Position numbers and translations under genes: made by a program. DNA of 64,000 bases from Gammaproteobacteria bacterium (GTDB lineage Bacteria > Pseudomonadota > Gammaproteobacteria > Competibacterales > Competibacteraceae). Within the stretch, counting starts at the first letter, position 1. Every line of letters begins with the position of its first letter. The notes below the pieces were generated by a model that was not told the origin of the DNA, searched no databases, and saw only the letters and a program-made list of their open reading frames with translations. The stretch lies in contig JADLEK010000076.1 in assembly GCA_020846135.1 (NCBI GenBank), forward strand, positions 62,001 through 126,000, written 5' to 3'. This document shows, piece by piece, positions 10,001 through 39,741 of this stretch.

Positions 10001-10132
10001 TCTTCAGCAACGCCTTCCCGATAAAACCCCACTTTATGATCGTTAAAAAATCAGTATTAGGGACTCCGCCTTGCATTCTTAGTGGAATTTACCTTAACTT
10101 GCAGTTCAAAATTACGAATCCTGAGCTTCCCG

Positions 10133-10378
10133 ATGATCACCGCAGCCCAACTTAAAGCAGCGCGCGCCCTGGCCGGGATGGATCAGCGGATGCTGGCCGA
10201 AGCCTCCGGATTGTCCCTACCCACCATCCAGCGCATGGAATCCAGCGACGGCACCATTCGCGGTAACGTTGATTCCCTGGTCAAGCTGATCACCGCGCTG
10301 GAAGCCGCCGGAGTCACTATGATTAACGAAGGCGCCGCCAGCGCAGGCGGTGGGCGCGGCGTTCGGTTGAGCCGCTAA
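10133..10378 (+). CDS. Small HTH (XRE-type) DNA-binding protein
   Basis: The 81-residue protein reads MITAAQLKAARALAGMDQRM at the start and has 'LAEASGLSLPTIQRMESSDG' as a typical Cro/CI-type helix-turn-helix, followed by 'VDSLVKLITALEAAGV'. The ATG at 10133 gives a start matching this widespread mini-family; an in-frame GTG at 10082 is less likely. It lies 17 bases before hyfB on the same strand, so it may be co-transcribed with, and regulate, the Hyf-like cluster. This is inference, because such small XRE proteins also occur as orphans. Confidence 0.78.
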   Translation: MITAAQLKAARALAGMDQRMLAEASGLSLPTIQRMESSDGTIRGNVDSLVKLITALEAAGVTMINEGAASAGGGRGVRLSR

Positions 10379-10395: not shown

Positions 10396-12411
10396 ATGAC
10401 CTTACCCTTGCTTTTAGCGTTACCGATGGTCCTGCTGGCTGTGGGCGTCTATGCAGTCATCGCGGCCCGTCCCCCCCACGGCAGCCGGCAGGTGTACAGC
10501 GTTGCGCTGGCGGTCAGTACCGTGGCCTTGATCGCTGCGCTCGCGTATCTGGCGAGTGGGCAAGCGCCGGAAACCCTGCGACTGCCCATTGGCTTGCCCT
10601 GGCTCGGCGCGCATTTCCGGCTGGACCCGCTGGCGGCGTTTTTCCTGATCGTGGTCAACCTCGGCAGCGCGGTCGCCAGCCTGTTCGCCCTTGGCTACGG
10701 CCAGCACGAAACAGCCCCAGAGCGGGTGTTGCCGTTCTACCCGGCGTTTCTGGCCGGGATGAACCTGGTGCTGCTGGCCGATGACGCCTTCGCGTTCCTG
10801 TTCGCCTGGGAATTCATGTCGCTGAGTTCGTGGGCGCTGGTCATGGCCCATCATCAGGACCCGGCCAATACCCGCGCCGGCTATCTCTACCTGGTCATGG
10901 CCTGCTTCGGCACCCTGGCGCTGTTGCTGACCTTTGGTCTGCTGGCGGGTCCCGATGGCGGTTATAACTTCGACGCCATCCGCGCCGGCCAGATCACGCC
11001 GGGGCTGGCGGCGCTGGTCTTGGCGCTGGCCTTGATCGGGGCGGGTTCCAAAGCCGGGCTGGTTCCGCTGCATGTCTGGCTGCCGCTGGCTCATCCCGCT
11101 GCACCCAGCCACGTTTCGGCGCTGATGAGCGGGGTGATGACCAAGGTCGCGGTCTACGGCTTCATCCGAATCATCTTCGATCTGCTCGGCGAACCGGTGG
11201 CGTGGTGGTGGGGCGGGATGGTGCTGGCGCTGGGCGGGATTACCGCAGTTCTCGGTGTTCTGTATGCGCTCATGCAGCACGATCTCAAGCGACTGCTGGC
11301 CTATCACACGGTTGAAAATATCGGGATCATTTTCATTGGTCTGGGACTGGCGCTGGCCTTTCAGGGCAACCAGATGTACGCCAGCGCCGCATTGGCGCTA
11401 ACCGCTGCGCTGTTTCATGTCCTCAATCATTCGCTGTTCAAGAGCCTGCTGTTTTTGGGAACCGGCGCGGTGCTAACCGCCACCGGCGAGCGCGATATGG
11501 AGCATTTGGGCGGACTGATTCACCCGATGCCGTACACGGCGCTGGCCTTCCTGATCGGCGCAGCGGCGATTTCGGCCCTGCCGCCGCTGAATGGTTTTGT
11601 CTCGGAATGGCTGACCTTTCAGGCGATTTTGCTCAGCCCGGAATTGCCGCAATGGCTACTCAAGTTTTTGGCCCCGGCGGTTGGAGCCTTATTGGCCCTG
11701 TCCGCCGCGCTGGCCGCCGCCTGCTTCGTCAAAGCCTTCGGCATCACCTTCCTCGGGCGGCCCCGCTCGCCGGTCGCCGCCCAAGCGAAGGAAACCGACC
11801 GCTATTCGTTGACCGCGATGTTCATTCTGGCCGGGCTGTGCGTGGTGGCGGGCATCCTGCCGGGACTGGTGGTGGACGGACTGGGGCCGGTCGTCGGTTC
11901 GCTCAACGGCAGCGTTCAATTAACGACCCAGCATAATCAACCCTGGCTGACCCTGGTGCCGATTGTTGATGTCAAGAGTACCTATAACGGCCTGTTGGTC
12001 ATGCTGTTCATGGCGATTTCCGGAACTCTGGCCGCGTTGCTGATTCACCGGCTGGCGTCGAATAAGGTGCGGCGCGGCCCGGCCTGGGATTGCGGCTTTC
12101 CCGATGCCAGTCCAGCGACCCAGTACACCGCCGGCAGCTTCGCCCAACCGATTCGGCGGGTGTTCGGCAGCGTGGTGTTTCAGGCTCGCGAACGGGTCAC
12201 AATGCCGCCGCCCGGTGATCTGCGCCCAGCCAAACTGGAGGTCCGAATGCGCGATCCGGTCTGGGAGATCGGTTACGCGCCGATTGCCACAGCTGTGGTG
12301 GCGCTCTCAAGCCGCTTCAATTATCTGCAATACCTGACCATTCGCCGTTATCTGGGCCTGGTGTTTGGCGCATTGGTGCTGCTGTTGCTGGGGATGGTGT
12401 TATGGCGTTGA
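10396..12411 (+). CDS. hyfB: Hydrogenase-4 subunit B-like proton-translocating membrane protein
   Basis: This 671-residue polytopic protein belongs to the Mrp/NuoL-NuoN antiporter family. It shows the channel signatures 'FAWEFMSLSSWALV' (key Glu in helix 5), 'GAGSKAGLVPLHVWLPLAHP' (key Lys in helix 7) and 'APSHVSALMSGVMTKVAVYG'. A long C-terminal section after about residue 480, including 'GPAWDCGF', is characteristic of HyfB/HycC. In formate hydrogenlyase and related complexes this subunit pumps ions in the inner membrane, driven by electron transfer in the peripheral arm. It overlaps hyfC by 10 bases and begins a six-gene run. Confidence 0.9.
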   Translation: MTLPLLLALPMVLLAVGVYAVIAARPPHGSRQVYSVALAVSTVALIAALAYLASGQAPETLRLPIGLPWLGAHFRLDPLAAFFLIVVNLGSAVASLFALGYGQHETAPERVLPFYPAFLAGMNLVLLADDAFAFLFAWEFMSLSSWALVMAHHQDPANTRAGYLYLVMACFGTLALLLTFGLLAGPDGGYNFDAIRAGQITPGLAALVLALALIGAGSKAGLVPLHVWLPLAHPAAPSHVSALMSGVMTKVAVYGFIRIIFDLLGEPVAWWWGGMVLALGGITAVLGVLYALMQHDLKRLLAYHTVENIGIIFIGLGLALAFQGNQMYASAALALTAALFHVLNHSLFKSLLFLGTGAVLTATGERDMEHLGGLIHPMPYTALAFLIGAAAISALPPLNGFVSEWLTFQAILLSPELPQWLLKFLAPAVGALLALSAALAAACFVKAFGITFLGRPRSPVAAQAKETDRYSLTAMFILAGLCVVAGILPGLVVDGLGPVVGSLNGSVQLTTQHNQPWLTLVPIVDVKSTYNGLLVMLFMAISGTLAALLIHRLASNKVRRGPAWDCGFPDASPATQYTAGSFAQPIRRVFGSVVFQARERVTMPPPGDLRPAKLEVRMRDPVWEIGYAPIATAVVALSSRFNYLQYLTIRRYLGLVFGALVLLLLGMVLWR

Positions 12412-13358
12412 TCACCGATTATCTGGTGCAGGGCTGCCAAATGCTGCTGATCCTGCTGCTGGCCCCGCTGCTGACCGGCTGGGTGCGAGTCATCAAGGCC
12501 CGGCTGTTGCGCCGGCGCGGATCGCCCCTGCTGCAACCTTACCGTGACCTGTACAAACTGCTGGGCAAGGAGGTGGTGCTGGCCGAATCCGCCTCATGGC
12601 TGTTTCGGGTCGCGCCCTATCTGATTTTCGCCGCGATCTGGGTCGCGGCGGCGCTGGTTCCCACCTTCGCCAATGGCCTGTTGTTCAGTTGGACGGCGGA
12701 TTTAATCGCCATTGTCGCCCTGCTCGGCAGCGCCCGCTTTTTCCTGGCCTTGGCCGGGCTGGATGTGGGGACCAGCTTTGGCGGGATCGGCTCCAGCCGC
12801 GAAATGATGATCGCCTCGCTGGCCGAACCGGCGATGCTGATGATGGTGTTCACGTTATCACTGCTGGCCGGCACCACCGAATTATCCGCCGTCGCCCGCT
12901 TTATGCTGACTGCCGACGTTGGGCTGCGGGTGTCGCTGGGCCTGGCGTTGCTGGCCTTGATGATGGTGGCGATTGCCGAAAACGCCCGGATCCCGGTCGA
13001 TAATCCGGCCACCCATCTGGAATTAACCATGGTGCATGAAGCGATGGTGCTGGAGTATTCCGGACGGCATCTGGCGCTGATTGAACTGGCCGCCTCGCTG
13101 AAACTGTTGCTGTATCTGTCGTTGCTGGCCTGCATTTTTGCGCCGTGGGGCATGGCGGCAGCGGGCGCGGGATTGGCCGCTTATGGTATTGGCTTGATGG
13201 TTTATGTCATCAAACTCGCGTTCGGCGGGGTGCTGCTGGCGCTGTTTGAAACCAGCGTCGCCAAGATGCGGGTCTTCCGGGTCGATGAATTTTTAGGTGC
13301 GGCGCTGATGCTGGGCTTGCTCGGCGCATTGCTGCTGTTCGTGTCACGGGAGTTGTGA
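12402..13358 (+). CDS. hyfC: Hydrogenase-4 subunit C-like (NuoH-type) membrane subunit
   Basis: The 318-residue membrane protein is a NuoH/HycD homologue, the subunit that connects the peripheral redox arm to the membrane arm. It shows 'PLLQPYRDLYKLLGKE' near the N-terminus, the charged loop 'NARIPVDNPATHLELTMVHE' and 'EYSGRHLALIELAASLKLLL'. Several hydrophobic helices cover the chain. It overlaps both neighbours (10 bases with hyfB, 1 base with hyfE as TGATG), so equal expression is expected. Nothing in it suggests loss of function. Confidence 0.9.
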   Translation: MALITDYLVQGCQMLLILLLAPLLTGWVRVIKARLLRRRGSPLLQPYRDLYKLLGKEVVLAESASWLFRVAPYLIFAAIWVAAALVPTFANGLLFSWTADLIAIVALLGSARFFLALAGLDVGTSFGGIGSSREMMIASLAEPAMLMMVFTLSLLAGTTELSAVARFMLTADVGLRVSLGLALLALMMVAIAENARIPVDNPATHLELTMVHEAMVLEYSGRHLALIELAASLKLLLYLSLLACIFAPWGMAAAGAGLAAYGIGLMVYVIKLAFGGVLLALFETSVAKMRVFRVDEFLGAALMLGLLGALLLFVSREL

Positions 13359-14023
13359 TGCACGGTTTAGCCTTCGATATTGCCCACCTGTTAGCGGGCA
13401 GCATGGTGATCGTGAGTTTTATGCTGCTGTATCAGGATCGGGTGTACGCGCTGCTGAATATCTTCGCGCTGCATTCACTGGTGCTGGCGCTGGCAGTCGG
13501 TTGGCAGGCGCATATTCAAAACGCGCCGCATTTATACGTCACGGCAGTCATTGCGCTGGTGTTCAAGGCGATTGTAATTCCCACCGCCTTATATCGGATT
13601 GTCCGGCGACTCGGCATTCATCGCACCCTGGAAGTGGTGGGCGGAGTGGGTCGCGATATGCTGGCCGGCACGGGATTAGTGGCGCTGGCGATTCTGGTGA
13701 TGTTGCCCGTCACCGCAACGGCTGATCCCCTGGCGCGAGAAGATTTAGCCTTTGCCTTGGCCGTGGTGCTATTAGGTTTGTTGCTGATGGTGGTGCGGCA
13801 TAACGCGATCAGTCTGGTGATTGGGTTTATGTCGCTGGAAAACGGGCTGGTGCTGGCGGCAGCGGGCGCTAAGGGAATGCCGCTGGCGGTAGAAATCAGC
13901 GTTGCATTTTCAGTGCTGATTGCGCTGATCGTGATTGGCGTTTTTCTGTTCCGCATTCGGGAGCGGTTTGACAGCGTGGATATGCAGGCGATGGATACCT
14001 TTCGCGAGGAGCGGCGGCGATGA
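13358..14023 (+). CDS. hyfE: Hydrogenase-4 subunit E-like (NuoK-related) membrane subunit
   Basis: This 221-residue hydrophobic protein matches HyfE: 'FMLLYQDRVYALLNIFALHS' near the N-terminus, a central helix set, and a NuoK-like section 'VVRHNAISLVIGFMSLENGL' followed by 'AVEISVAFSVLIALIVIGVF'. HyfE-type proteins combine extra helices with a NuoK-like antiporter-associated domain. The ATG at 13358 overlaps the hyfC stop by one base (TGATG), which fixes the start; a GTG one codon earlier is possible. It ends in an ATGA overlap with hyfF. Confidence 0.88.
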   Translation: MHGLAFDIAHLLAGSMVIVSFMLLYQDRVYALLNIFALHSLVLALAVGWQAHIQNAPHLYVTAVIALVFKAIVIPTALYRIVRRLGIHRTLEVVGGVGRDMLAGTGLVALAILVMLPVTATADPLAREDLAFALAVVLLGLLLMVVRHNAISLVIGFMSLENGLVLAAAGAKGMPLAVEISVAFSVLIALIVIGVFLFRIRERFDSVDMQAMDTFREERRR

Positions 14024-15468
14024 GCAACCTCGGTTCTATAGCCGTAGTGGCGCTGCTGATCGTTCCGGCCAGTACCGCGTTGGCGCTGATCGGGCTGTCC
14101 AGCTATCGAATCGGCGCGCGCCTGAATATCGGCGCGGCGTTCATTACGCTCCTGGCTGCGGTCACCCTGTTTGGGGTGCGGCCAGAGGCTAACTTGTATC
14201 TGCGGGTGGATGATTTCAACATCTATCTCATTGCCCTGAATAATCTGGTCAGTTTCACCACCAGTATTTTCAGCGCCGGTTATATTGCCCATGAGCTGGA
14301 AACCGGGCGGTTGACTCCGAATTATCTGCGTTTTTATCACGCCATGTATCAGGCGTTGCTATTCGCTATGAATCTCGCCTTTCTCGCCAATAATATCGGG
14401 CTGATGTGGGTCGCGATTGAACTAGCGACGCTGGTGACGGTGCTGATGGTCGGGATTTACCGGACTCAGGCGGCATTGGAGGCAGCCTGGAAGTATTTTA
14501 TTCTCGGCAGTCTGGGGATTGCGCTGGCGCTGTTTGGAACGATTCTGGTGTATTTGGCCGCCCAGCCGGTGATGGGGGAAGGCTTGCCGGCGATGGCCTG
14601 GGATCAGTTGCTGGAACACGCCGCCCGCTTTGATCCGGCCTTACTGAATCTGGCGTTTATCTTTCTGCTGCTGGGTTATGGCACCAAGGCCGGACTGTTT
14701 CCCCTTCATGCCTGGCTGCCGGATGCCCATGCGGAAGGTCCGACGCCCATTTCGGCAGTGCTGTCCGGTTTGTTGTTGAATGTCGCGCTGTATGCGGTGC
14801 TGCGGTTCAAGATGCTGATGAACGCTAATCCGGCGGCATTAACGCCAGGTCCCCTGCTGGTCGGGGTAGGACTGGCGTCACTGCTATTCGCGGCTTTGAT
14901 GATTTACCGACGCGGTGATATTAAGCGGCTGTTTGCGTATTCCTCCATTGAACACATGGGTATTATGACTTTCGCATTTGGCATGGGTGGGCCGCTCGCC
15001 AATTTCGCCGGACTGCTGCACATGACCATGCACAGCCTGACCAAATCAGCGATTTTCTTTACCGTCGGTCATATCTCCCAAGCGAAAGGCACCCAGCGAA
15101 TCTCAACCATTCGCGGCTTGACTGCAACGCATCCGGCGCTGGGTTGGGGGCTGGTGGCGGGAGTAGTCGCCATTGTTGGAATGCCGCCGTTTGGCGTGTT
15201 CATGAGCGAGTTTCTGATTGTCAGTTCGACCTTTGCCCGTCAACCATTATTGGCTTTGCTGCTGGTCCTGGGATTACTGCTGGCGTTTGGGACTCTGCTC
15301 TGGCGATTGCACGGGATGGCGTTTGGTGAATCGCGTGGCGCGAATACGCCGGTTCACGCCAGTCTGTTGCCGATGCTGACTCATTTGGGATTGGTGCTGA
15401 TGGCGGGCATCTGGTTGCCGGAGCCACTGGTGGCGTGGTTTCAGCATGTCGCGGTGTTGCTGGGTTAA
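14020..15468 (+). CDS. hyfF: Hydrogenase-4 subunit F-like proton-translocating membrane protein
   Basis: This 482-residue protein is a second NuoN/NuoM-type antiporter subunit. Visible signatures are 'LMWVAIELATLVTVLMVG' (helix 5 Glu), 'GYGTKAGLFPLHAWLPDAHA' (helix 7 Lys), 'EGPTPISAVLSGLLLNVALY' and 'KRLFAYSSIEHMGIMTFAFG'. Together with HyfB it would give the complex two antiporter-like channels. It starts in an ATGA overlap with hyfE; 27 bases separate it from hyfG. Confidence 0.9.
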   Translation: MSNLGSIAVVALLIVPASTALALIGLSSYRIGARLNIGAAFITLLAAVTLFGVRPEANLYLRVDDFNIYLIALNNLVSFTTSIFSAGYIAHELETGRLTPNYLRFYHAMYQALLFAMNLAFLANNIGLMWVAIELATLVTVLMVGIYRTQAALEAAWKYFILGSLGIALALFGTILVYLAAQPVMGEGLPAMAWDQLLEHAARFDPALLNLAFIFLLLGYGTKAGLFPLHAWLPDAHAEGPTPISAVLSGLLLNVALYAVLRFKMLMNANPAALTPGPLLVGVGLASLLFAALMIYRRGDIKRLFAYSSIEHMGIMTFAFGMGGPLANFAGLLHMTMHSLTKSAIFFTVGHISQAKGTQRISTIRGLTATHPALGWGLVAGVVAIVGMPPFGVFMSEFLIVSSTFARQPLLALLLVLGLLLAFGTLLWRLHGMAFGESRGANTPVHASLLPMLTHLGLVLMAGIWLPEPLVAWFQHVAVLLG

Positions 15469-15495
15469 AGAAAGGCTAAGGGCTAAAGGTTAAAG

Positions 15496-17016
15496 ATGAG
15501 CGTTAGCGCTTTGCAGACAGTGCTGGAAGTCGGTCAATCAGTTGTGGAACATCGCCCATGGCCGCGAGTCGTGGTGACCGTTGAAACCTGGAATGCCTTG
15601 ATTGAAGGTTTGTCCGGCGGCGCGCTCACGATGTTGGGGTTATGGGGCGAAATGGGCATGGCCCATTTAGCGTTGCGCGAGGACTCCAGTGAATCAATAG
15701 TTGTCGCCAGTTTGCCGTGTCCCGATGGGCGCTTTCCTTCGGTTGGGCGACTCCATCCGCCAGCGCAACGTCTCGAGCGCACTATGGCTGATTTGGTTGG
15801 ATTACAGGCTATTGGCGCTCCTGATCATCGTCCGTGGCTGGATCATGGCCGTTGGCCGGTACGGCATCCACTCGGTGCAGCAACGACGCCCATCGGGATT
15901 TTACCGCCATATCGATTTTTGCCCGCTGAAGGCGAGAGTCTGCATCAGATTCCGGTCGGGCCGGTTCATGCCGGGATTATTGAACCCGGTCATTTCCGCT
16001 TTACCGCAAATGGCGAAACGGTAGTGCGACTCGAACAGCGCCTCGGCTATGTTCATAAGGGCATTGAGAGTCTGCTGAATGGTGCGACGATTGATCAGGC
16101 GGCGCGAGTGGTCGGGCGGGTGTCCGGTGATAGCACGGCGGCTTATGCGCTGGCTTTTGCCCGTGCGGTTGAAGCAGCGACGGAAACCGTTATTCCGGAT
16201 CGCGCTCACTGGTTGCGGGCATTGATGGCCGAACTGGAGCGGCTGGCAAATCATTGTGGCGATATGGGCGCAATTTGTAATGACGCCGCTTTTGCCTTAA
16301 TGCTGGCTCATTGCGCAGTATTGCGCGAGCGGATTTTACGCGCCAGCGCCGCCTGTTTCGGGCATCGCCTGATCATGGATTGCATCATTCCTGGTGGAGT
16401 GAGCGCTGATCTGCCAGCGGATGGAGTAAAGACCATTCAGGCGCTAGTGGCGGAAATTCGCCGCGATTTTCCGCCATTGGTGGATTTGTACGACAACACG
16501 GCTTCAATGCAGGATCGCACGGTGAATACCGGTTTTGTCCGGCCCGCGTTGATCAAGCAATTCGGCTGTGGCGGAATTATTGGCCGCGCTGGAGGCCGGA
16601 CTTTTGATGCTCGCCGCCAGCCCGGTTATCCACCTTATGCTCAATTGCAATTTGCAACGGCGCTCTTGACTGACAGCGATGTCAATGCCCGCATCTGGTT
16701 GCGAATCCGCGAAGTGGAACAAAGTCTAAGTCTCATCGATCAGATTTTACAGCGCTTGCCAACCGGGCCAGTACGAGTTGAATTAAATTCTCCAGGTCAA
16801 ATCACTGAAGGCATGGCTCTGGTTGAAGGTTTTCGTGGTGATATTCTGGTTTGGCTGCGCCTCAATGCCGATAGTACGGTGGCGCGTTGTCATCCCCGCG
16901 ATCCCTCGTGGTTCCAGTGGCCATTATTGGAAGCGGCCGTTGAAAATAACATCGTCGCGGATTTCCCAATCTGCAATAAATCCTTCAATGGTTCCTATTC
17001 AGGCCATGATTTGTAG
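15496..17016 (+). CDS. hyfG: Hydrogenase-4 large-subunit-like protein lacking the NiFe cysteines
   Basis: The 506 residues hold a NuoC-like 30-kDa domain ('GRFPSVGRLHPPAQRLERTM', about 78-97) fused to a NuoD/HycE-like domain starting near 155 ('RLEQRLGYVHKGIESL', 178-193). In true NiFe hydrogenases the next block carries an R-x-C-G-x-C motif. Here it reads R208-V-S210-G-D-S213, with serines at both positions. The C-terminal C-x-x-C is also absent: the protein ends P-I-C493-N-K-S-F-N-G-S-Y-S-G-H-D-L. So the catalytic metal site cannot form in the known way and H2 chemistry is unlikely. It resembles energy-converting hydrogenase-related (Ehr) complexes. A quinone-like or other redox partner role is inference. 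Confidence 0.9.
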   Translation: MSVSALQTVLEVGQSVVEHRPWPRVVVTVETWNALIEGLSGGALTMLGLWGEMGMAHLALREDSSESIVVASLPCPDGRFPSVGRLHPPAQRLERTMADLVGLQAIGAPDHRPWLDHGRWPVRHPLGAATTPIGILPPYRFLPAEGESLHQIPVGPVHAGIIEPGHFRFTANGETVVRLEQRLGYVHKGIESLLNGATIDQAARVVGRVSGDSTAAYALAFARAVEAATETVIPDRAHWLRALMAELERLANHCGDMGAICNDAAFALMLAHCAVLRERILRASAACFGHRLIMDCIIPGGVSADLPADGVKTIQALVAEIRRDFPPLVDLYDNTASMQDRTVNTGFVRPALIKQFGCGGIIGRAGGRTFDARRQPGYPPYAQLQFATALLTDSDVNARIWLRIREVEQSLSLIDQILQRLPTGPVRVELNSPGQITEGMALVEGFRGDILVWLRLNADSTVARCHPRDPSWFQWPLLEAAVENNIVADFPICNKSFNGSYSGHDL

Positions 17017-17027
17017 GCTCTCCCGCT

Positions 17028-17543
17028 ATGCGTAGCAAGCTGTTATTGCAAAATCTGTTACGGTTTCCACTGACCGTTCCAGCTCCCGCTCCGTCTGAAG
17101 CAGCGCTGGCTGAATTAGCCGCCAAGGTTAATGACAACGCCCAGCGGCGATTGGGTCGCAGCCTGTCCATTCGTGAGGTGGACGCCGGTTCCTGTAATGG
17201 CTGTGAACTGGAAATTCATGCGCTGAATAACGCTTTTTATGATCTGGAACGGTTCGGCTTTCATTTTGTCGCCTCGCCGCGCCATGCTGATGTGCTGTTG
17301 GTAACAGGGCCGGTGACCGCCAATATGAAACAGGCGCTGGAACGCACTCATGCTGCCACACCCGATCCGAAATGGGTGGTGGCGGTCGGCGATTGCGGAC
17401 GGGATGGCGGAGTTTTCGCCGGGAGTTATGCCTGCATCGGCGGCATTTCCGCAGTGATTCCGGTGGATTTGCATATCCCCGGTTGTCCCCCTACGCCGAT
17501 GCAATTGCTACAAGGGTTACTGGCGCTATTGGAAGCGCAGTAA
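17028..17543 (+). CDS. hyfI: Hydrogenase-4 small-subunit-like iron-sulfur protein (NuoB-type)
   Basis: The 171-residue protein is a NuoB/HycG homologue. It keeps four cysteines for one 4Fe-4S cluster: C56 and C59 in 'DAGSCNGCELE', C123 in 'VGDCGRDGG' and C153 in 'IPGCPPTP'. That is the cluster closest to the active site in complex I and group 4 hydrogenases, so electron transfer to this site should be possible although HyfG lacks NiFe ligands. It starts 11 bases after hyfG and ends the run. No ferredoxin subunit (HyfA/HyfH), formate dehydrogenase or hyp maturation gene is next to it. Confidence 0.9.
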   Translation: MRSKLLLQNLLRFPLTVPAPAPSEAALAELAAKVNDNAQRRLGRSLSIREVDAGSCNGCELEIHALNNAFYDLERFGFHFVASPRHADVLLVTGPVTANMKQALERTHAATPDPKWVVAVGDCGRDGGVFAGSYACIGGISAVIPVDLHIPGCPPTPMQLLQGLLALLEAQ

Positions 17544-17608: not shown

Positions 17609-18760
17609 TTACTGGGCGACCGCCGAGTCTTTCATGGCTTTCACCGAATCATCAAAGTAGGGTGAAAACATGACATCCAGGCCGTCATACCCATAAGAAT
17701 TGACGCCATTGGCAAAATTGGAAACCACAAGTCCCGGCGAAAAGTCAGTGATCCAAGGCCCGCCACTGCTTCCCCCCGTTTGGATACTGCCGGCTCCCGT
17801 GCTGGGAGGACTGCCAGAATCATCGATAGCAGCAGTCGGGGCCATTGTTTCGATCATTTCGTACCCAATATAAGGAGCGCCGGCTGGATAACCGAACATC
17901 GCCCACAGTCTTTCCCTGGGAAAGTTATAAGCAAACCCGAGTGCGCCTACCTTCCCTGACAGCGTGGAGCCTTGCTGATCGGCTACAATCGAGAAGGCGA
18001 CATCCCTGCCCAGATTTTCCTGTTCCTTCCAAGACTGAAAATAGAACAAAGACGTCTGTGTCCATCTACCATAAGGCGCCTCGCCATTGTAATAGACGGG
18101 TACAAAAACCCAGTTGACATGAGGTTTCCCTTTTTCCATCACGCAGTGGCCCGCCGTTAATACTGCCCTGCCGCCAATCGATGAGCCAGAACAGACATAA
18201 TCTTTGCCGTCTGCCTGACTGGTAAAAAACACTCTTCCAATGGCCATGTAAGGATAAAGCGGAGTCGGTGGCGCGTAGAGAATCCGCGGCACTGAAAATG
18301 TCGAGTGCATGGGGATGCCCACTTGCTGGATCGTCATTTGAATTGCCGCCATTTTCTGGGTTAAACCCGTCGAGAGGCTGGAACTGGAATCCACCGACGG
18401 TTTGGTGACATCGCCGCTATCGGGCTGTGGCGTTGCATTCTCAGTGGGCAAACTGCCAGGGTCATATCCAGGAGAGCTGCTGGGCGTATCCAAATCGGAC
18501 GGGGCACGAAGTGAGCCAGATTTACCGGGCGTGAGCACAGGATAGGGCTTGGCGTTTTTCATCCGTTCGGGCGTCCAGTAGTCTTCTTCTCCATTCCCCA
18601 TCATTCGGGTAGCCGGCGGAGTGCATTTAAGAATCGTTTCACCCCCGGCGTAGCCGTACTCAACGCACTCAGTCGTCGAACTTTCGCCCGCAACTGACGA
18701 TGCCGACCATAGCATGGCCGGGATAATCGCTAACCCAATACATGATTTTTTCAATGCCAT
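17609..18760 (-). CDS. Exported trypsin-like serine protease (V8/chymotrypsin fold)
   Basis: From the ATG at 18760 the 383-residue protein begins with a Sec signal peptide (MALKKSCIGLAIIPAMLWSA, cleavage near residue 24). A low-complexity stretch (about 80-135, Pro/Ser/Asp-rich) leads to a protease domain with a complete triad: H205 in LTAGHC, D253 in 'GRDVAF' and S332 in 'GGSSGGPW'. C190 and C206 probably form the usual disulfide. It would act in the periplasm or outside the cell. The frame is open back to 18844, but only the downstream start gives a signal peptide; GAGGAGA abuts it. Substrate unknown. It splits the hyf cluster from argH and looks like an independent unit. Confidence 0.85.
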   Translation of the reverse strand: MALKKSCIGLAIIPAMLWSASSVAGESSTTECVEYGYAGGETILKCTPPATRMMGNGEEDYWTPERMKNAKPYPVLTPGKSGSLRAPSDLDTPSSSPGYDPGSLPTENATPQPDSGDVTKPSVDSSSSLSTGLTQKMAAIQMTIQQVGIPMHSTFSVPRILYAPPTPLYPYMAIGRVFFTSQADGKDYVCSGSSIGGRAVLTAGHCVMEKGKPHVNWVFVPVYYNGEAPYGRWTQTSLFYFQSWKEQENLGRDVAFSIVADQQGSTLSGKVGALGFAYNFPRERLWAMFGYPAGAPYIGYEMIETMAPTAAIDDSGSPPSTGAGSIQTGGSSGGPWITDFSPGLVVSNFANGVNSYGYDGLDVMFSPYFDDSVKAMKDSAVAQ

Positions 18761-18880
18761 TCTCCTCAGCTTAAAGCGTGGGTGATCGTAACTCTGCATA
18801 AAGTGTAGGCGACGGCTTAATCTGCGTAAACCACGCCATACCATACATGGAGCGATCTTGGCAAGGTTATGGACAACGCC

Positions 18881-29953: not shown

Positions 29954-30925
29954 TCACTTCCCGTTCATTCCCAGCACATTGCGGCGGATGATGGGCAACA
30001 TTTCTGCAATATTCTCGGTCGAGATGGGCAGTATGGGTAACTGCTGCTGTAGCTTGACCGGCTGGCCTTTCAGGTGAGCGTCCATGGTATTGACGGCCTC
30101 CTCGCCCATGAGGAACGGCTGCTGCATGGCCGCCCCCACCAGGACGCCCTTGGGGATCAACTGTAGAAACTCCGGTTCTGCGTCAAAACAGATGAGAAGT
30201 ATCTGATCGCTCTTGCCGGCAGCGGCGATGGCGTCCAGCGCCCCCTGATAGCGATCCGATCCTTGCAGCCAGAGCGCCCGCAGGTCGGGATTGGCGGCGA
30301 TCAGTTCCTTGGCGAAGTCATAGGTTTCCTGGTAGGAAAAATCCACCTGCTGCCGGAGGCCTGCCCCCTTGATCCCGGCTTCGTCCATCGCCTGCATGAA
30401 CCCGGCGGTGCGCGCCTGGCCGTTGATGCGTTTCTGCGGGATGGTGATGATACCCACGCTGCCCTTCTCCCACTGCCGCGCCTGTAACGCCTTGGCCAGC
30501 ACCTTACCGATTTGGTAGGAACCTTCCCGATTATCCGAAGCGATATAGCTCACATAGTCGCCACTGTCGGCGCCAATGTCCGCAATCACGACCGGAATGC
30601 CCGCCGCCTTGGCCAGCTTGAGGATCGTGACGGCGGCGGAGGAGTTGGTCGGCGAAAGAATAATGCCATCGACTTTCTCCCGGATGGCCCGCGCCGTGAG
30701 TTCCAGCTCACGTTTAGCGTTGTTTTCAGCGCTATAGAAAACCACCGTGTAGCCAAGCGCCTCGGCGCGCGAACCAATCCCGCGTTTCATGATGTCCCAA
30801 AAGGGAATGCGCAGGTCGGAGACCAGGTAGGCGAACTGCTGTTCAGCGGACTGGGCGATGCCTGCCGACATTAGAGAGGCCACCAGCAACAGACCGATCA
30901 TCGCGAGGGTTTTAAGGGTTTTCAC
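29954..30925 (-). CDS. Periplasmic sugar-binding-type substrate-binding protein
   Basis: The product (323 residues from the GTG at 30925) has a Sec signal peptide (cleavage near 'AQSA', residue 27) and a type I periplasmic binding fold of the ribose/galactose group: 'AYLVSDLRIPFWDIMKRGIG', 'EKVDGIILSPTNSSA', 'GIPVVIADIGADSGDYVSYI' and 'PDLRALWLQGSDRYQGALDA'. AAGGAG six bases before the GTG decides the start; the frame is open back to 31228 without a signal. No ABC permease or ATPase lies nearby. With the kinase gene 9 bases downstream, it is more likely a ligand receptor for the kinase (as LuxP or TorT are) than a transporter part. Confidence 0.88.
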   Translation of the reverse strand: MKTLKTLAMIGLLLVASLMSAGIAQSAEQQFAYLVSDLRIPFWDIMKRGIGSRAEALGYTVVFYSAENNAKRELELTARAIREKVDGIILSPTNSSAAVTILKLAKAAGIPVVIADIGADSGDYVSYIASDNREGSYQIGKVLAKALQARQWEKGSVGIITIPQKRINGQARTAGFMQAMDEAGIKGAGLRQQVDFSYQETYDFAKELIAANPDLRALWLQGSDRYQGALDAIAAAGKSDQILLICFDAEPEFLQLIPKGVLVGAAMQQPFLMGEEAVNTMDAHLKGQPVKLQQQLPILPISTENIAEMLPIIRRNVLGMNGK

Positions 30926-30988
30926 GCGCAGCTCCTTGGAAAAACAGGACGTTCGCTTCGATCTTATACCCATTCGCAATAGGGTTTC

Positions 30989-31014
30989 GTCATACCCGCG
31001 AAAGCGGGTATGAC
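30989..31014. repeat. Short palindromic repeat upstream of the signalling locus
   Basis: Perfect inverted repeat gtcatacccgc (30989-30999) / gcgggtatgac (31004-31014), loop gaaa. It lies between the binding-protein start (30925) and the membrane-protein gene ending at 31161, and is related to 24828-24849. It could terminate the upstream transcription unit. Confidence 0.75.
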
Positions 31015-31160
31015 GAACAGGGTCGTTTTTGATCTGAAAAAGATAAAATCTATCGGGAAACGGTATTAAAATCGGACATGCACAAACTTCCAGCCCGTGT
31101 TGAAACGGGCAAGATGCCCGTTGCATACCACAACCAGCGAATCTCCTGATTGCGCCGCTT

Positions 31161-32180
31161 CTATTCCGAATGCTCGCGCCGTCGCTGTTCCAGATAAAAC
31201 GTGAGCGCCAGCGCCCCGCCCCCGGCAATCAGCAGACTCAGCAACAAACCCAGATGCTCGGCCAGATGAGCAAAAAACAGGGTGTAAATCTGGATGATCA
31301 GGAAGGTCGCGCCGTAGCCGGTCAGCATCCGCATTGCCAGCCGTGCGCCTAACCAAACCAGTGCGATGTTTAAACCCGCCCACAGCGCATTGAACAGGAT
31401 CAACTCGCCGGCTCCGGCCCAATGCCAGCGCTCGGTTTCCAGATCGAAGTTGCCAAACAGCGCCAGCAACCACAGCGCCATTTCCGCAAAAAACAGCCCG
31501 GCGGACAGCCAGACCTTGCAAAAACCCCGGTACCGCGCCAACGGTCCAGCTTCGCTTTGTTGATGGATGATGGCAATGGCGATCATTGCGACCGCCGCCA
31601 GCAGGAAGCGCAATGGGTAGTTCATTCCGAACCAGTACGCCCCCCATCCGGACGCGTAGCCCGTGAAACCACCGAACCAGCAGAAAAACACCACTGCGCT
31701 CAACACCAGCAACAGGACGTTCCGCAGCGCGTAGCTGAGGCCAATCAGCAGCAACAAATCAATCAGCAACAGCGCCGGCCAGTTGCCGGAACCGGTGGAA
31801 TAAATCGCCCCCAGGGTGAAGGTCAGGCCGATCAGCAACAGACCGCCGAGCAGTTCCAGACTCAGCCCGCTCCAGACCAGGGCGGGCCGGGTGCGCTTGA
31901 GCCATTGCCCGCCGCTGAAACCGGCCAGCATGGCGATCCCCAGCAGTATCGTCAGCTTGGTCAGGGTGAACTCGAACAGGGTCCGGCTAATCAACGCCAG
32001 TCCCGCAATCACGCTGATCGCGCCGAAAATCAGGAACCAGCGACCCAGCGAGCGCCAGTCCCAGCCCGTGATCGGATAGCGATCCAGCAGTTGCCCATAC
32101 AGCGCCTCAGTCAGAACGCCTTCGCGCAGCAGTTCAGTCAGTTCCCGGCGGATACGGCGGTTACGGGAGAGTGGGTTCAT
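31161..32180 (-). CDS. DUF2157-like polytopic membrane protein, copy 2
   Basis: The 339-residue protein has a soluble helical N-terminus ('RRELTELLREGVLTEALYGQ') followed by roughly ten hydrophobic helices. I do not recognise a function; the layout resembles DUF2157-type membrane proteins. It is a diverged paralogue of its upstream neighbour: the ends 'GYGATFLIIQIYTLFFAHLA' and 'GFGIVFLAINLYTRFFEHFW' align, as do the N-terminal helices. The two overlap by 4 bases (ATGA), so they are made together and may form a heteromer. No enzyme motif is visible. Confidence 0.75.
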   Translation of the reverse strand: MNPLSRNRRIRRELTELLREGVLTEALYGQLLDRYPITGWDWRSLGRWFLIFGAISVIAGLALISRTLFEFTLTKLTILLGIAMLAGFSGGQWLKRTRPALVWSGLSLELLGGLLLIGLTFTLGAIYSTGSGNWPALLLIDLLLLIGLSYALRNVLLLVLSAVVFFCWFGGFTGYASGWGAYWFGMNYPLRFLLAAVAMIAIAIIHQQSEAGPLARYRGFCKVWLSAGLFFAEMALWLLALFGNFDLETERWHWAGAGELILFNALWAGLNIALVWLGARLAMRMLTGYGATFLIIQIYTLFFAHLAEHLGLLLSLLIAGGGALALTFYLEQRRREHSE

Positions 32181-33181
32181 GGTTGCCGCTCCGGAATGTT
32201 GGTCTGAGAAGCACTGACCTGACTCTGCCGCTCAAAGGCATAGCCGAGCAGCATCGCCAGCGCCCCGGCGATCAGGAAAAACGCGCCGGCGGACAGTTGA
32301 TCCCAGAAATGCTCGAAGAAGCGGGTGTAGAGATTGATCGCCAGAAATACGATGCCAAAGCCGGTAAAGCGGGCATCGTGCAGCCGGGCGCCAGCGACGA
32401 TCTGGGCGATACCGGCGAGGGTGAAGACCAGCACCCAGTCCAGCGGCCGGCCGAACAGGGTCAGGAACCACAGCGACAAATTCAGATACAGCAGCCCGAA
32501 AATGAGGTACAGCCCGCCGAACCCGGCGCACCGCCGCAACAGGCCGCTTTCCAGGACCCGCTCATGCCAGACCCCCAGCCCGATAGCGATCAAAGCGATC
32601 ACCGCCATTAGCCGCTCGTCCTGAATGTCCGCGAAATAGGTCCCATGCCCGCCGTAAGCGTGCCATGCGCCCACCCCGTGAAAGAACAGCAGCAGCGCCA
32701 ACAGCAACGGCCAGCGCAACCGGTAGCGGTAGGCGGTCAAGGCGGCCAGCGCCCCGGTCAGCAGCATGATCATCGGAACGGCGCGACCGTCCGCATCGCC
32801 ATTGAAGGTGATATTCAGCAGCAGGAAGGTTCCAAACGCCGCCGCCAGACTGGCTGTGACCAGCACCGAACCAGTAAAGGGATGACGTTGCTGCGAATCA
32901 ATCGCCATGCGCACCCCGAACCGCCACAACCCGGCGCTGACGCCGGCCAGCATCAATGCCGCCAGCAGGGCCGATTCGGTCATCAGGGCGATAAAGGCCA
33001 GGACCGCCAGCCCGAGTTGGAACAGGGCGAACAGGCCGAGCCATTTCAGCAGGGCCGCCAGAAACCGGCCCTGGGTTTCGTAGCGCGGCAGCAGCAGGTC
33101 CAGCATGGGCCGATCAATCCAGCCCTGCTGATGCCAGTCAGTGATTTCGCGGGTCAACAGTTCACGGGTGATGAGGCGCAT
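32177..33181 (-). CDS. DUF2157-like polytopic membrane protein, copy 1
   Basis: The 334-residue protein starts 'MRLITRELLTREITDWHQQG', a soluble helical segment, then has about ten membrane helices ending near 'SAGAFFLIAGALAMLLGYAF'. It is paralogous to the downstream gene and first in the pair. Function is not known to me. The rnt start is 669 bases upstream with its stop 19 bases before this start, so it may be read through from rnt. Confidence 0.75.
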   Translation of the reverse strand: MRLITRELLTREITDWHQQGWIDRPMLDLLLPRYETQGRFLAALLKWLGLFALFQLGLAVLAFIALMTESALLAALMLAGVSAGLWRFGVRMAIDSQQRHPFTGSVLVTASLAAAFGTFLLLNITFNGDADGRAVPMIMLLTGALAALTAYRYRLRWPLLLALLLFFHGVGAWHAYGGHGTYFADIQDERLMAVIALIAIGLGVWHERVLESGLLRRCAGFGGLYLIFGLLYLNLSLWFLTLFGRPLDWVLVFTLAGIAQIVAGARLHDARFTGFGIVFLAINLYTRFFEHFWDQLSAGAFFLIAGALAMLLGYAFERQSQVSASQTNIPERQP

Positions 33182-33199
33182 GGTTTGGACTCCGGTTAA

Positions 33200-33850
33200 T
33201 CAGTCTCTAACCAAATCGTCTTCCATGGCCCAGCCGCCCAGGTCCTGCCAGCGGTTGACGATTTGGCAAAACAGTTCTGCGGTGCGTTCAGCGTCATAAA
33301 TGGCCGAATGCGCCTCATGTTCATTCCACGGAATGCCCGCCGCCTTTAAGGCCTTGGCCAGCACGGTCTGGCCGTAAGCCAGTCCGGCCAGCGTCGCAGT
33401 ATCAAAACTGCTGAATGGATGAAAGGGACTGCGTTTGATCCGGTTTCGCTCAACCGCCGCATTCAGAAACGCCATATCGAAAAAGGCGTTGTGGCCGACC
33501 AGAACGGCGCGGCTGCAACCGGTATCCCGCATTTCCCGGCGGATCTCGCGGAAAATAGCGTTCAACGCCTCAGCTTCGGGTACGGCAAAGCGGAACGGAT
33601 GATCGGGATCAATGCCGTTGATCGCCATCGAGGCCGGATCGAGTCGCGCGCCGGGAAACGGCTGGATGTGGTGAGCCAGCGTTCCGACCGGCAGCAGATG
33701 ACCCTGCCAGTCCATGCGGATGATGACCGCAGCGATTTCCAGCAGCGCATCGGTCTGCGGATTGAGACCGCCGGTCTCGACATCAACGATCACGGGCAGA
33801 AAGCTGCGGAAGCGGCGGGAAATAAGGGAGTTGGGGGCGGGTTCAGTCAT
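33200..33850 (-). CDS. rnt: Ribonuclease T
   Basis: RNase T trims the 3' ends of tRNA and other stable RNAs. The 216-residue protein carries the DEDDh exonuclease residues D23 and E25 ('VDVETGG'), D125 ('GHNAFFDMAF'), H181 and D186 ('HSAIYDAERT'). It also shows RNase T-specific blocks such as 'GIDPDHPFRFAVPEAEAL', 'KRSPFHPFSSFDTATLAGLA' and 'LFCQIVNRWQDLGGW'. The ATG at 33850 matches the family start; the longer frame to 34039 overlaps moaE. Confidence 0.94.
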   Translation of the reverse strand: MTEPAPNSLISRRFRSFLPVIVDVETGGLNPQTDALLEIAAVIIRMDWQGHLLPVGTLAHHIQPFPGARLDPASMAINGIDPDHPFRFAVPEAEALNAIFREIRREMRDTGCSRAVLVGHNAFFDMAFLNAAVERNRIKRSPFHPFSSFDTATLAGLAYGQTVLAKALKAAGIPWNEHEAHSAIYDAERTAELFCQIVNRWQDLGGWAMEDDLVRD

Positions 33851-33903
33851 GAATGCAGCATAACGGATAGCCTTCCGGAACGCACCCAAACCACGCCGGC
33901 CTG

Positions 33904-34344
33904 TCACCCCGGCGTGTTGTGTTCGACCCAGTGCGGTCCGGTGGCAGTGTCCTCGCGCTTCCAGAATGGCGCGGTTGATTTGAGTTCCTCGATCAGGAAC
34001 CGGCAGGCGGCAAACGCCGCCGCTCGGCGCTCCGTCCAAACTGCGATCAGGACAATGGGATCATTGGGTTGCAATGCGCCGACCCGGTGGATGACCAGCA
34101 CATCCAGCAGCGCCCATTGCTGGAAAGCAGATTCAACAATCCGCTGCAACTGCCGTTCGGTCATGCCGGGATAGTGTTCCAGGGTCATGCCGCGCACCGC
34201 TTCGCCGTCATTGGCGTCGCGCATGGTTCCGATAAAGATCGTCGCCGCGCCGTACTGGCCGCGCCGGTTTTCATCCAAACCGGCCTGATAGCGCGCCAGT
34301 TCCGCCAGTGGCTCGAACGGGGTGGTCCGTAGTTCGACAGGCAC
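33904..34344 (-). CDS. moaE: Molybdopterin synthase catalytic subunit
   Basis: MoaE inserts the dithiolene sulfurs into precursor Z, using thiocarboxylated MoaD, to make molybdopterin. The 146-residue protein has 'GAATIFIGTMRDANDGEAV', 'MTLEHYPGMTERQL', 'HRVGALQPNDPIVLIAV' and 'STAPFWKRED', whose lysine is in the active site. It lies 3 bases after moaD. moaA and moaC are not in the window, so the cofactor pathway is split between loci. Confidence 0.96.
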   Translation of the reverse strand: MPVELRTTPFEPLAELARYQAGLDENRRGQYGAATIFIGTMRDANDGEAVRGMTLEHYPGMTERQLQRIVESAFQQWALLDVLVIHRVGALQPNDPIVLIAVWTERRAAAFAACRFLIEELKSTAPFWKREDTATGPHWVEHNTPG

Positions 34345-34347
34345 CGG

Positions 34348-34581
34348 CTACCCCCCGGTCACGGGCGGAAAGAACGCGACCTCGTCGCCATCAGCGACCG
34401 AGTGTTCCAATCCGGCATAGTCCAGATTGACCGCCGCCAGCGTATTCGGCGGCAGTGGCGCATCCGGCCACAGCGTCGCCCAAACGCCAGCGACGGTCAG
34501 CCCATCCACCGACTCCAGCCGATCTCCGGCCCGACCTAACTGATCGCGCAGACTGGCGAAATACTTGATCTCAATGGACAT
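34348..34581 (-). CDS. moaD: Molybdopterin synthase sulfur carrier subunit
   Basis: This 77-residue ubiquitin-fold protein ends in the required PPVTGG, whose terminal glycine is thiocarboxylated to donate sulfur to MoaE. The start (MSIEIKYFASLRDQLG) at 34581 is preceded by GAGGGATTC; an in-frame start at 34596 is less likely. It lies 15 bases after the ABC permease gene, so it could share a transcript with the exporter. Confidence 0.95.
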   Translation of the reverse strand: MSIEIKYFASLRDQLGRAGDRLESVDGLTVAGVWATLWPDAPLPPNTLAAVNLDYAGLEHSVADGDEVAFFPPVTGG

Positions 34582-34596
34582 GTGAATCCCTCGCAA

Positions 34597-35679
34597 TTAT
34601 TTGACTTGTCGCAGACTCAATAGCAGCGTCGCGATACCCAGCGCCGCCATCATCGCGTATTCAAAACCATGAGCGCCAAGCGGACTACCCTTCAGAAACA
34701 CATCGCGGATAATCACCAGGTAATAGCGCAATGGATTCAGCCAGGTCAGCCATTGCACCCCTTCCGGCATGTTCTGGATCGGGAAGGCGAAACCGGACAG
34801 CACCACCATCGGTTGGATCACGAAGAACGCCAGCAGTTGCGCCTGCTGCTGGGTGTCCGAATAGCCGGAAATCAGCAACCCGATCCCCAAGGTGCTCATT
34901 AGGAACAACCCACTGCCGGCTAGGAGGCCAATCACATTGCCCCGGAACGGCACGTCAAACCAGACCACCGCGATAACGCTGATCAGCAGCACGTCGAACA
35001 GGCCGACGCTGGCGACCGCCGTCATTTTCGCCACCAGAAATTCCAGCCGGGCGACCGGCGTCACCAGCAACCGCTCCAGGGTTCCAAACTCCCGTTCCCG
35101 GACAATGGTCATCGCGATCAAAATCACGGTAGTAATCAGCACGATGGTGGCGATGATGCCGGGGACAAAATAGGACCGGTCATCCAGGTTCTCATTGAAC
35201 CAAGCGCGATCTTCGACTTGGAGCGGTGGATCGAGGCCGGCGCTGGTCTGGGCGCTACGCTGCAAGGCCTGGCTGAGTTGCCCGACGATCATCTGGGCGC
35301 TGTTGGAATCCGAACCGTCGGCAATGATCTGTGCCGTCCGCCTGATCTCAAAATCCGGCGCAAACCGCAGCAGGGCGCGGACCTGGCCGCGATCAATGGC
35401 CGCCGAAGCCGCTGTGACATCCGGCAAATAGTGCAGGGTAAAGCTGCCGGTGGCCGCCACTGCCGCCAGCAGTTCGCGAGTGGTTGCGGTTCGGGCCTGA
35501 TCAACTATCGCAATTTCAGCATGGCGGACATCGAAACTGGCCGCATAGCCAAACGCCATGAGCTGAAACAGCGGCGGAACGATCATGAAAAAGCGCATCC
35601 GCGGATCGCGCAGCAGTTGCAAAAACTCCTTGCCGAGTAAAGCCCGCAGCCGAATCAGACTGGCTCGCAGCGGATTCAC
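34597..35679 (-). CDS. ABC-2 type exporter permease, second copy
   Basis: The 360-residue permease has one N-terminal membrane helix, a large periplasmic domain (about 50-170) and five C-terminal helices, the YhhJ/YbhR-type ABC-2 layout. Motifs include 'LLGKEFLQLLRDPRMRFFMI' at the start and 'VREREFGTLERLLVTP' before the second helix. The GTG at 35679 overlaps the upstream permease stop by 4 bases (GTGA), which decides the start. It would form the membrane part of a drug or hydrophobic-compound exporter with its paralogue. Confidence 0.88.
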   Translation of the reverse strand: MNPLRASLIRLRALLGKEFLQLLRDPRMRFFMIVPPLFQLMAFGYAASFDVRHAEIAIVDQARTATTRELLAAVAATGSFTLHYLPDVTAASAAIDRGQVRALLRFAPDFEIRRTAQIIADGSDSNSAQMIVGQLSQALQRSAQTSAGLDPPLQVEDRAWFNENLDDRSYFVPGIIATIVLITTVILIAMTIVREREFGTLERLLVTPVARLEFLVAKMTAVASVGLFDVLLISVIAVVWFDVPFRGNVIGLLAGSGLFLMSTLGIGLLISGYSDTQQQAQLLAFFVIQPMVVLSGFAFPIQNMPEGVQWLTWLNPLRYYLVIIRDVFLKGSPLGAHGFEYAMMAALGIATLLLSLRQVK

Positions 35680-39664: not shown

Positions 39665-39741
39665 GAATTTTCTATTTCCCGAATGATTAGGCGATTGATC
39701 ATAAAGGCTATACCGGGCGTCGAGCATCATTCCAGAAACCG

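Follow-up and report, generated by a model that had tools for sequence, protein, structure and literature searches.

The 64,000-nucleotide stretch of DNA analysed here (the window) carries, between positions 10396 and 17543 of its forward strand, six adjacent genes for a membrane complex homologous to hydrogenase-4, together with a small regulatory gene just ahead of them. The host is a wastewater gammaproteobacterium of the family Competibacteraceae with a 3.7 Mb genome that is 99.9% complete (G000; the window lies on contig C76). The first gene, hyfB (10396 to 12411), encodes a large antiporter-like membrane subunit of 671 amino acids (NCBIfam NF005086, 885 bits, over the cut-off), and is followed on the same strand by hyfC (12402 to 13358) for a NuoH-like membrane anchor of 318 amino acids (Pfam NADHdh, 121.5 bits), hyfE (13355 to 14023), and hyfF (14020 to 15468) for a second antiporter-like subunit of 482 amino acids (NF005043, 832 bits, over the cut-off). 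The last two are hyfG (15496 to 17016), whose product is a large subunit of the NuoC-NuoD/HycE kind without NiFe ligands, and hyfI (17028 to 17543), for a small subunit with one [4Fe-4S] site of the hydrogenase type CxxC...C...C (Pfam Oxidored_q6). Pfam and NCBIfam confirm the families of HyfB, HyfC, HyfF, HyfG and HyfI, with alignments adding to the case for HyfG. HyfE, a membrane subunit of 222 amino acids, is named from its position in the operon and from a match to NF008556 of 77 bits, below the cut-off of 136; a Pfam search gave it no match. An earlier note on this DNA, made from the letters alone, had described six adjacent and mostly overlapping genes; its coordinates and frames are right, and three of the five junctions from hyfB to hyfI overlap.

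Ending 17 nucleotides before hyfB is a gene for an XRE-type helix-turn-helix (HTH) regulator of 81 amino acids (10133 to 10378, forward strand; Pfam HTH_3), with an ATG at 10133; if an upstream GTG is taken as the start instead, the open reading frame (ORF) covers 10082 to 10378. The protein begins M-I-T, as hyqR does according to the Azorhizobium primer Hyq-B. The seven genes match, in the same order R-B-C-E-F-G-I, the hyqRBCEFGI set of Azorhizobium caulinodans ORS571, which was described in 2009 and termed a Ni,Fe endo-hydrogenase (PMC2650096). The HyqG proteins are 58.5% identical and share the SGDS motif, the NKSFN-x-SY-x-GHDL end and the lack of CxxC pairs, and they fall in one clade of a tree (support 99/98). 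In this tree, which carries a long-branch warning, group 4 is represented by E. coli HycE and HyfG only, and what it displays is a Hyq clade and not the place at which NiFe was lost. The window complex is a Hyq-type member in a new host lineage, differing from that of Azorhizobium in its gammaproteobacterial host and in a glycine, Gly499, at the third of three cysteines singled out in 2012. A limited literature search found no paper on a Hyq complex in Competibacteraceae.

A second hyfF-hyfG-hyfI set is present in the host genome (contig C11, 1 to 4927; L037), with a HyfG identical to the window copy at 429 of 506 positions. Nonsynonymous divergence between the two hyfG copies (dN) is 0.09 and synonymous divergence (dS) 1.02, indicating that HyfG is under selection and not decaying. 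Contig C11 is short, ending beyond hyfF on one side and carrying a convergent transposase-like ORF on the other, and the set is a genuine second copy or else a fragment stemming from the assembly or from strain variation.

The former NiFe site of HyfG

HyfG was aligned with E. coli HycE, HyfG and NuoCD in a set of 91 distinct close and three distant homologues (of 109), after removal of sequences identical over the last 400 residues and with the window's own protein (L003) counted among the 91. The named relatives derive from at least 592 pattern matches, at least 578 of them confirmed as relatives, from which the best 80 of 578 were kept. Because the peptide patterns used to fetch relatives exclude the ligand sites, invariance at the ligand columns was not built into the set. 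The cysteines C241, C244, C531 and C534 of HycE align on S210, S213, S500 and G503 of the window HyfG, so that none of the four NiFe ligands is kept, and cysteine is absent from every ligand column in all 91 close homologues, including the window. S210 is found in 91 of 91 and S213 in 90, with one alanine, and S500 and G503 are each found in 90 of 90, one homologue being truncated at its C-terminus. The S210-G-D-S213 that the earlier note had reported in place of the first C-x-x-C lies on the C241/C244 columns. Its second site was misplaced: PICNKSFN, read as both the C-terminal ligand site and the end of the protein, comprises residues 491 to 498, immediately N-terminal of the true site (S500 and G503, in SYSG), and the protein ends in ...NKSFNGSYSGHDL. 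The note had held that CxxC pairs lying elsewhere in HyfG at the ligand positions would speak against it; stray CxxC pairs occur in 3 of 92 HyfG sequences, none of them on ligand columns. One distant homologue (L026) has a cysteine at the first former ligand column, with alanine and glycine at the C-terminal ones; the cysteine is possibly a relic of ligand loss.

The last residue, L506, aligns with R537 of HycE, a column that we take to be the cut site of the maturation protease, and no C-terminal maturation tail follows it. The large-subunit domain of HycE spans residues 182 to 537 (PMC9474812). True NiFe subunits from the host genome and its family served as positive controls and retain ICGxC or LCGxC and DPCxxC; the host genome itself has such subunits with both CxxC pairs, as well as hypD. 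Large subunits with intact CxxC pairs were also seen in three stretches from the host family (L142 to L144), which had been considered as an intact group 4 contrast but, with these subunits read as group 1, count as positive controls only. Absence of the ligands is already in print, since a 2012 paper noted that HyqG lacks both CxxC pairs, called Hyq an H2:quinone oxidoreductase and doubted a NiFe site (PMC3357923).

The pocket signature that runs across Hyq is S210-G-D212-S213 ... N498-x-S500-Y501-x-G503. D212, an acidic residue lying between the columns of the first two ligands, does not vary among the 91 close and three distant homologues and is missing from all three E. coli references, being isoleucine in HycE and HyfG and leucine in NuoCD. 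In the β1-β2 loop, Glu193 of HycE is kept as E163, and Asp192 is replaced by Ile162 in 91 of 91. The column of the complex I histidine that meets the quinone head (NuoCD H224) is likewise I162, and the column taken for its tyrosine partner, the Tyr of NuoD that presumably shares in binding the head, is G211, again in all 91; any quinone would therefore bind differently. Elements of the quinone cavity have been held to be conserved in Hyq (PMC3357923). Canopy Asp529 of HycE, described as strictly conserved in hydrogenases and complex I (PMC9474812), has become Asn498 in 90 of 90 Hyq sequences. The counterparts of named proton-path residues (PMC9474812) are kept as E163, H253, R364, E406 and R447, the last four in at least 90 of 91. 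In total, 16 of 17 pocket positions, picked after the alignment had been inspected, are at least 98% conserved, versus 137 of the 506 positions overall.

Three HyqG cysteines (Cys-258, -491 and -497) were termed completely conserved in 2012 (PMC3357923). In our set C261 occurs in 91 of 91 and C493 in 90 of 90, but the third is cysteine in 75 and glycine in 15 of 90, the window having G499, and hence it is no required ligand throughout the family. Conservation of all three cysteines is not a founding feature of Hyq, so the membership of the window complex in Hyq stands.

The solved structure closest to HyfG by sequence is HycE (176.9 bits). An AlphaFold model of HyqG alone has a mean predicted local distance difference test score (pLDDT) of 84.9, falling below 50 at residues 145 to 187 and 501 to 506, segments that include the β1-β2 loop and some of the region around the C-terminal ligand positions. 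A Foldseek search with this model ranks HycE first (7z0s_E), a result that bears on the fold only.

The remainder of the complex is well preserved, as the earlier note had maintained for the cluster and the antiporter residues. The HyfI cluster cysteines C56, C59, C123 and C153 are each present in 91 of 91 sequences, and a fifth, C136, is unconserved; CNGC plus two cysteines is the hydrogenase pattern, and the adjacent cysteine pair of NuoB is absent. E139, K219, K250 and E404 of HyfB are found in 71 of 71 homologues, and E134, K223 and E397 of HyfF in 80 of 80; we take these residues to be the channel Glu and Lys. Seven acidic residues of HyfC (E142, E193, D200, E207, E213, E218 and E283) are conserved in 75 of 75.

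Hyq resembles several known systems. The Ehr complexes, defined as group-4-like complexes without Ni/Fe-coordinating residues (PMC6349859), likewise combine such a large subunit with antiporter subunits, and the likeness to Ehr drawn by the earlier note is apt, given an intact antiporter arm and Fe-S site and no NiFe ligands. The likeness is one of definition: Ehr is a loose label, whereas Hyq forms a single, delimited clade that has a fixed pocket and a regulator of its own. E. coli hydrogenase-4 and formate hydrogenlyase (HyfG, HycE) are the closest solved relatives and have homologous membrane subunits, but the window operon lacks hyfA, hyfD, hyfH and hyfJ of E. coli hyf, the NiFe cysteines and the C-terminal tail. 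With complex I (NuoB, NuoCD, NuoH) it shares the fold, the acidic residues of the NuoH-like anchor and the same C-terminal column, but it has no NuoEFG genes, no adjacent Cys-Cys, and Ile162 and Gly211 at the histidine and tyrosine columns.

Distribution of Hyq and the genetics of Azorhizobium

The published claim that hyq encodes a hydrogenase recycling H2 from nitrogenase concerns a protein without NiFe-site ligands, and the company that Hyq keeps in genomes bears on this claim. Carriers were surveyed at 50 of the 80 named Hyq loci, none named Competibacteraceae and many of them metagenome-assembled genomes (MAGs) of unknown completeness, with a nitrogenase search confined to Mo-type nifD. 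A nifD over the cut-off was present in 14 of 50 carriers and absent from 36, one of which has a weak match; HypD was present in 16 and absent from 34. Both genes occur together in 10 carriers and neither in 30. Carriers of the last kind that are not labelled as MAGs include Sphingopyxis, Mesorhizobium, Neorhizobium, Labrys, Phyllobacterium, Rhizobium, Bradyrhizobium (the genome with the weak nifD match), Ensifer and Afipia. These counts make recycling of nitrogenase H2 unlikely as a general role, and where HypD is absent any handling of H2 would be independent of NiFe centres made by Hyp proteins. This survey adds a pocket signature shared by the whole family, the finding that one of the three cysteines is not completely conserved after all, and 30 of 50 carriers with neither nifD nor HypD, which together sharpen the question of what Hyq does.

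The evidence that connects Hyq to H2 comes from Azorhizobium mutants. Expression of hyq depends on NifA, and its deletion slows growth on N2 from 7.2 to 8.8 h, a defect that persists under 20% H2 (PMC2650096). The same gas takes a hup mutant from 7.2 to 6.8 h and leaves the double mutant unchanged (PMC2650096, Table 2). In nodules, H2 was 0.30 for the wild type, 0.32 for hup-, 0.36 for hyq- and 27.0 for the double mutant, in which the rate of acetylene reduction was 25.0 (PMC2930871). The same paper states that H2 recycling is kept when the whole 20-gene hup/hyp operon is deleted, that recycling also takes place in Rhodocista centenaria, which carries hyq and lacks hup/hyp ("data not presented"), and that hyq is generally absent from non-diazotrophs (PMC2930871). 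In culture, H2 evolved at 20 µM O2 was 12 for the wild type, 16 for hup-, 175 for hyq- and 540 for the double mutant, and microaerobic values were 61,000 for hup-, 14,000 for hup- hyq- and 56,600 for nifK hup- (PMC3357923).

We took genome G102 as A. caulinodans, given a 21-mer of the published primer Hyq-B that matched one of 391 genomes of one family, exact matches to four of six published primers within 13 kb and matches to the seven genes in order. Its HyqG reads GRVSGDS and has the C-terminus CNKSFNCSYAGHDL. Matches to the NiFe family in G102 consist of HyqG and a cluster at 661 to 673 kb, which we interpret as HupL, HupV and an accessory protein; no FeFe hydrogenase was matched, and HyqG is the only NiFe-family large subunit found away from the hup region.

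Possible functions of the complex

The explanation that we favour, although it is tentative, is that Hyq is an ion-translocating oxidoreductase in which a rebuilt, NiFe-free pocket works with a soluble carrier and a second substrate, in reversible coupling to ion movement. One cluster site, one pocket and two charged antiporter-like arms fit an ion-coupled oxidoreductase, and with no further redox subunit in the set, electrons must move between the cluster and a soluble carrier, and between the pocket and a second substrate. Support also comes from the gene set and clade shared with Azorhizobium, from the ligand columns without cysteine, from the conserved pocket, proton-path, cluster and antiporter residues, and from the carriers that lack HypD (34 of 50) or nifD over the cut-off (36 of 50). 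With its six subunits, Hyq would then be a pared-down relative of both formate hydrogenlyase and complex I, accompanied by the regulator HyqR. A low-potential carrier, most likely ferredoxin or flavodoxin, would dock on HyqI without a dedicated subunit, and the former NiFe cavity of HyqG would hold the second substrate, for which a quinone in an unusual binding mode is the likeliest candidate. Electrons would pass between the two in a reversible reaction, which HyqC would link to the movement of ions in HyqB and HyqF. The proposal is weakest where it names the two redox partners. Forms of complex I without NuoEFG exist, and by this analogy ferredoxin-quinone chemistry is preferred, if unproven. 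The H2 effects in Azorhizobium mutants might be indirect, arising from a changed electron pressure on nitrogenase, and it is odd for a cytoplasmic H2 oxidiser that 20% H2 barely helps cells relying on Hyq (7.2 to 6.8 h).

Several points weigh against this explanation. Interaction with ferredoxin, flavodoxin or quinone is something that we infer, and the quinone-head histidine and the presumed tyrosine position are occupied by Ile162 and Gly211. Moreover, the jump in nodule H2 from 0.32 in hup- to 27.0 when hyq is also deleted (PMC2930871) is hard to explain without H2 uptake, and G102 offers neither another NiFe large subunit outside the hup region nor an FeFe hydrogenase to account for it. 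The contention of the earlier note that an ion pump survives without a hydrogen site is partly supported: the ligands are missing, but measured H2 activity, which the note had named as refuting it, has been claimed for Azorhizobium Hyq, the closest studied relative, on in vivo genetics only.

The alternative that survives best, though clearly less probable, is a cation/proton antiporter that either senses redox state or is independent of it, with the hydrophilic arm gating two Mrp-like subunits and the cluster serving as sensor. Conservation of the charged membrane residues and the want of a nearby redox partner gene suit this alternative, as do the anion-transporter genes (SulP, CLC) that neighbour Hyq in some lineages. 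However, the conservation of a proton path and, specifically, of the pocket in HyqG points to chemistry at that site, and the growth phenotype on N2 suggests that the role is energetic.

Somewhat less probable again, and in our judgement doubtful, is that Hyq is a genuine H2:quinone oxidoreductase, able to activate H2 without NiFe and independently of Hyp proteins. The nodule values of the double mutant against 0.30 to 0.36 otherwise, the recycling stated for strains without hup/hyp and for R. centenaria (PMC2930871), the shifts in H2 evolution in culture (PMC3357923), the absence from G102 of any other hydrogenase match beyond the hup region and the carriers without HypD all speak for it. Against it stand a HyqG with no NiFe ligands, the carriers without nifD over the cut-off and the weak response to 20% H2 (PMC2650096). 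The three papers are apparently from one group; PMC3357923 states that a cell-free assay using exogenous H2 was not at hand, and the nifK hup hyq triple mutant is not among the strains listed in the excerpts of that paper. The hyq deletion also removes hyqR, with no complementation seen in the excerpted text, and the double-mutant nodule H2 of 27.0 exceeds the acetylene reduction of 25.0, which puts it above what obligatory H2 evolution by nitrogenase should yield. A more specific proposal, and an improbable one, is that Hyq represents a fourth kind of hydrogenase, whose NiFe-free, Hyp-independent pocket beside a single [4Fe-4S] cluster would be formed by Ser210, Asp212, Ser213, Asn498, Ser500, Tyr501 and Glu163 and coupled to ion pumping.

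About equally improbable is a nitrogenase-specific device for electron supply or H2 recycling that was selected together with nif. NifA-dependent induction and a growth defect specific to N2 in Azorhizobium (PMC2650096) favour such a device, and within the host family nifD is over the cut-off in 15 of 17 Hyq-positive genomes (uncorrected for kinship) versus 3 of 8 Hyq-negative ones, some of these eight being incomplete and two more having partial matches. As a general role it already fails, since 36 of 50 carriers outside the family, including isolates of Sphingopyxis, Afipia, Labrys, Phyllobacterium and Ensifer, have no nifD over the cut-off. Finally, an orthodox NiFe hydrogenase with unrecognised ligands, as the 2009 claim would require, has its sequence class and its best solved relative, HycE, in its favour but is barely credible for a protein that shows no cysteine on four ligand columns in 91 sequences, has glycine at one of the three 2012 cysteines in 15 of 90, stops at the HycE R537 column without a maturation tail and occurs in 34 of 50 carriers without HypD.

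Hyq is either a widespread ion pump with an uncharted substrate or a case of H2 activation without NiFe or FeFe centres, and the S-G-D-S / N-x-S-Y-x-G pocket and the regulator provide precise handles on it.

Regulator and gene neighbourhood

Across lineages the HTH regulator is the only gene among the inspected clusters that recurs beside the operon. In 54 of 60 usable loci it lies on the same strand, 0 to 98 nucleotides upstream of hyfB; the 60 are those, among 75 loci with hyfB, that include the hyfB start and at least 400 nucleotides upstream. Among the six others, one HTH gene overlaps an apparently mis-called start, one is 2.3 kb away, and four loci have no match; in the 15 loci set aside, the gene is less than 100 nucleotides from hyfB in nine. 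The window regulator is the only match within the host genome at E ≤ 0.001. The conserved seventh partner that the earlier note had proposed to look for exists, as a regulator and not as a redox subunit. A promoter scan found TGT-N10-ACA in 4 of 67 loci and a strict sigma-54 pattern in 0 of 67; since these NifA and sigma-54 patterns also miss the known Azorhizobium promoter, the scan proves nothing.

For the partner survey, 3,796 flanking ORFs were clustered, the 40 widest clusters inspected and eight representatives searched against Pfam. No recurrent redox partner gene appeared in the inspected clusters, and none was present among the scanned flank genes of the window, a subset of its ORFs that includes helicase YoaA, a trypsin-like protein, porphobilinogen deaminase, HemX and HemY. 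The earlier note had listed a ferredoxin subunit, formate dehydrogenase and hyp genes as missing; for hyp genes this is true at most of the neighbourhood, as the host genome has hypD. The remaining wide clusters were set aside as reverse-frame ORFs, scattered common families or lineage-local genes; an ABC-like ORF occurs in 19 loci at a median distance of 4.9 kb, and a lineage-local methyltransferase-like ORF in 14.

Six loci of the host family (L042 to L046 and L050) have SulP-type transporter ORFs on the strand of the operon, five downstream and one upstream, at a median of 224 nucleotides; Pfam, including a STAS domain, was matched on the L046 copy only, and no SulP gene was seen beside the window operon. 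Two distant Hyq-like operons (L040 and L041), with HyfG 39 to 42% identical and without the HTH gene, differ in their neighbours: one has BipA upstream, and the other is followed downstream by a CLC chloride channel gene. Within the window, the trypsin-like protein (17609 to 18844, reverse strand) is convergent with hyfI and has no NCBIfam match and no visible link to the complex. Farther away, a same-strand run at 29957 to 39730 (reverse strand) encodes a periplasmic binding protein, two ABC-2 permeases, two ABC ATPases and an HlyD-type protein, and is likely an ordinary export operon.

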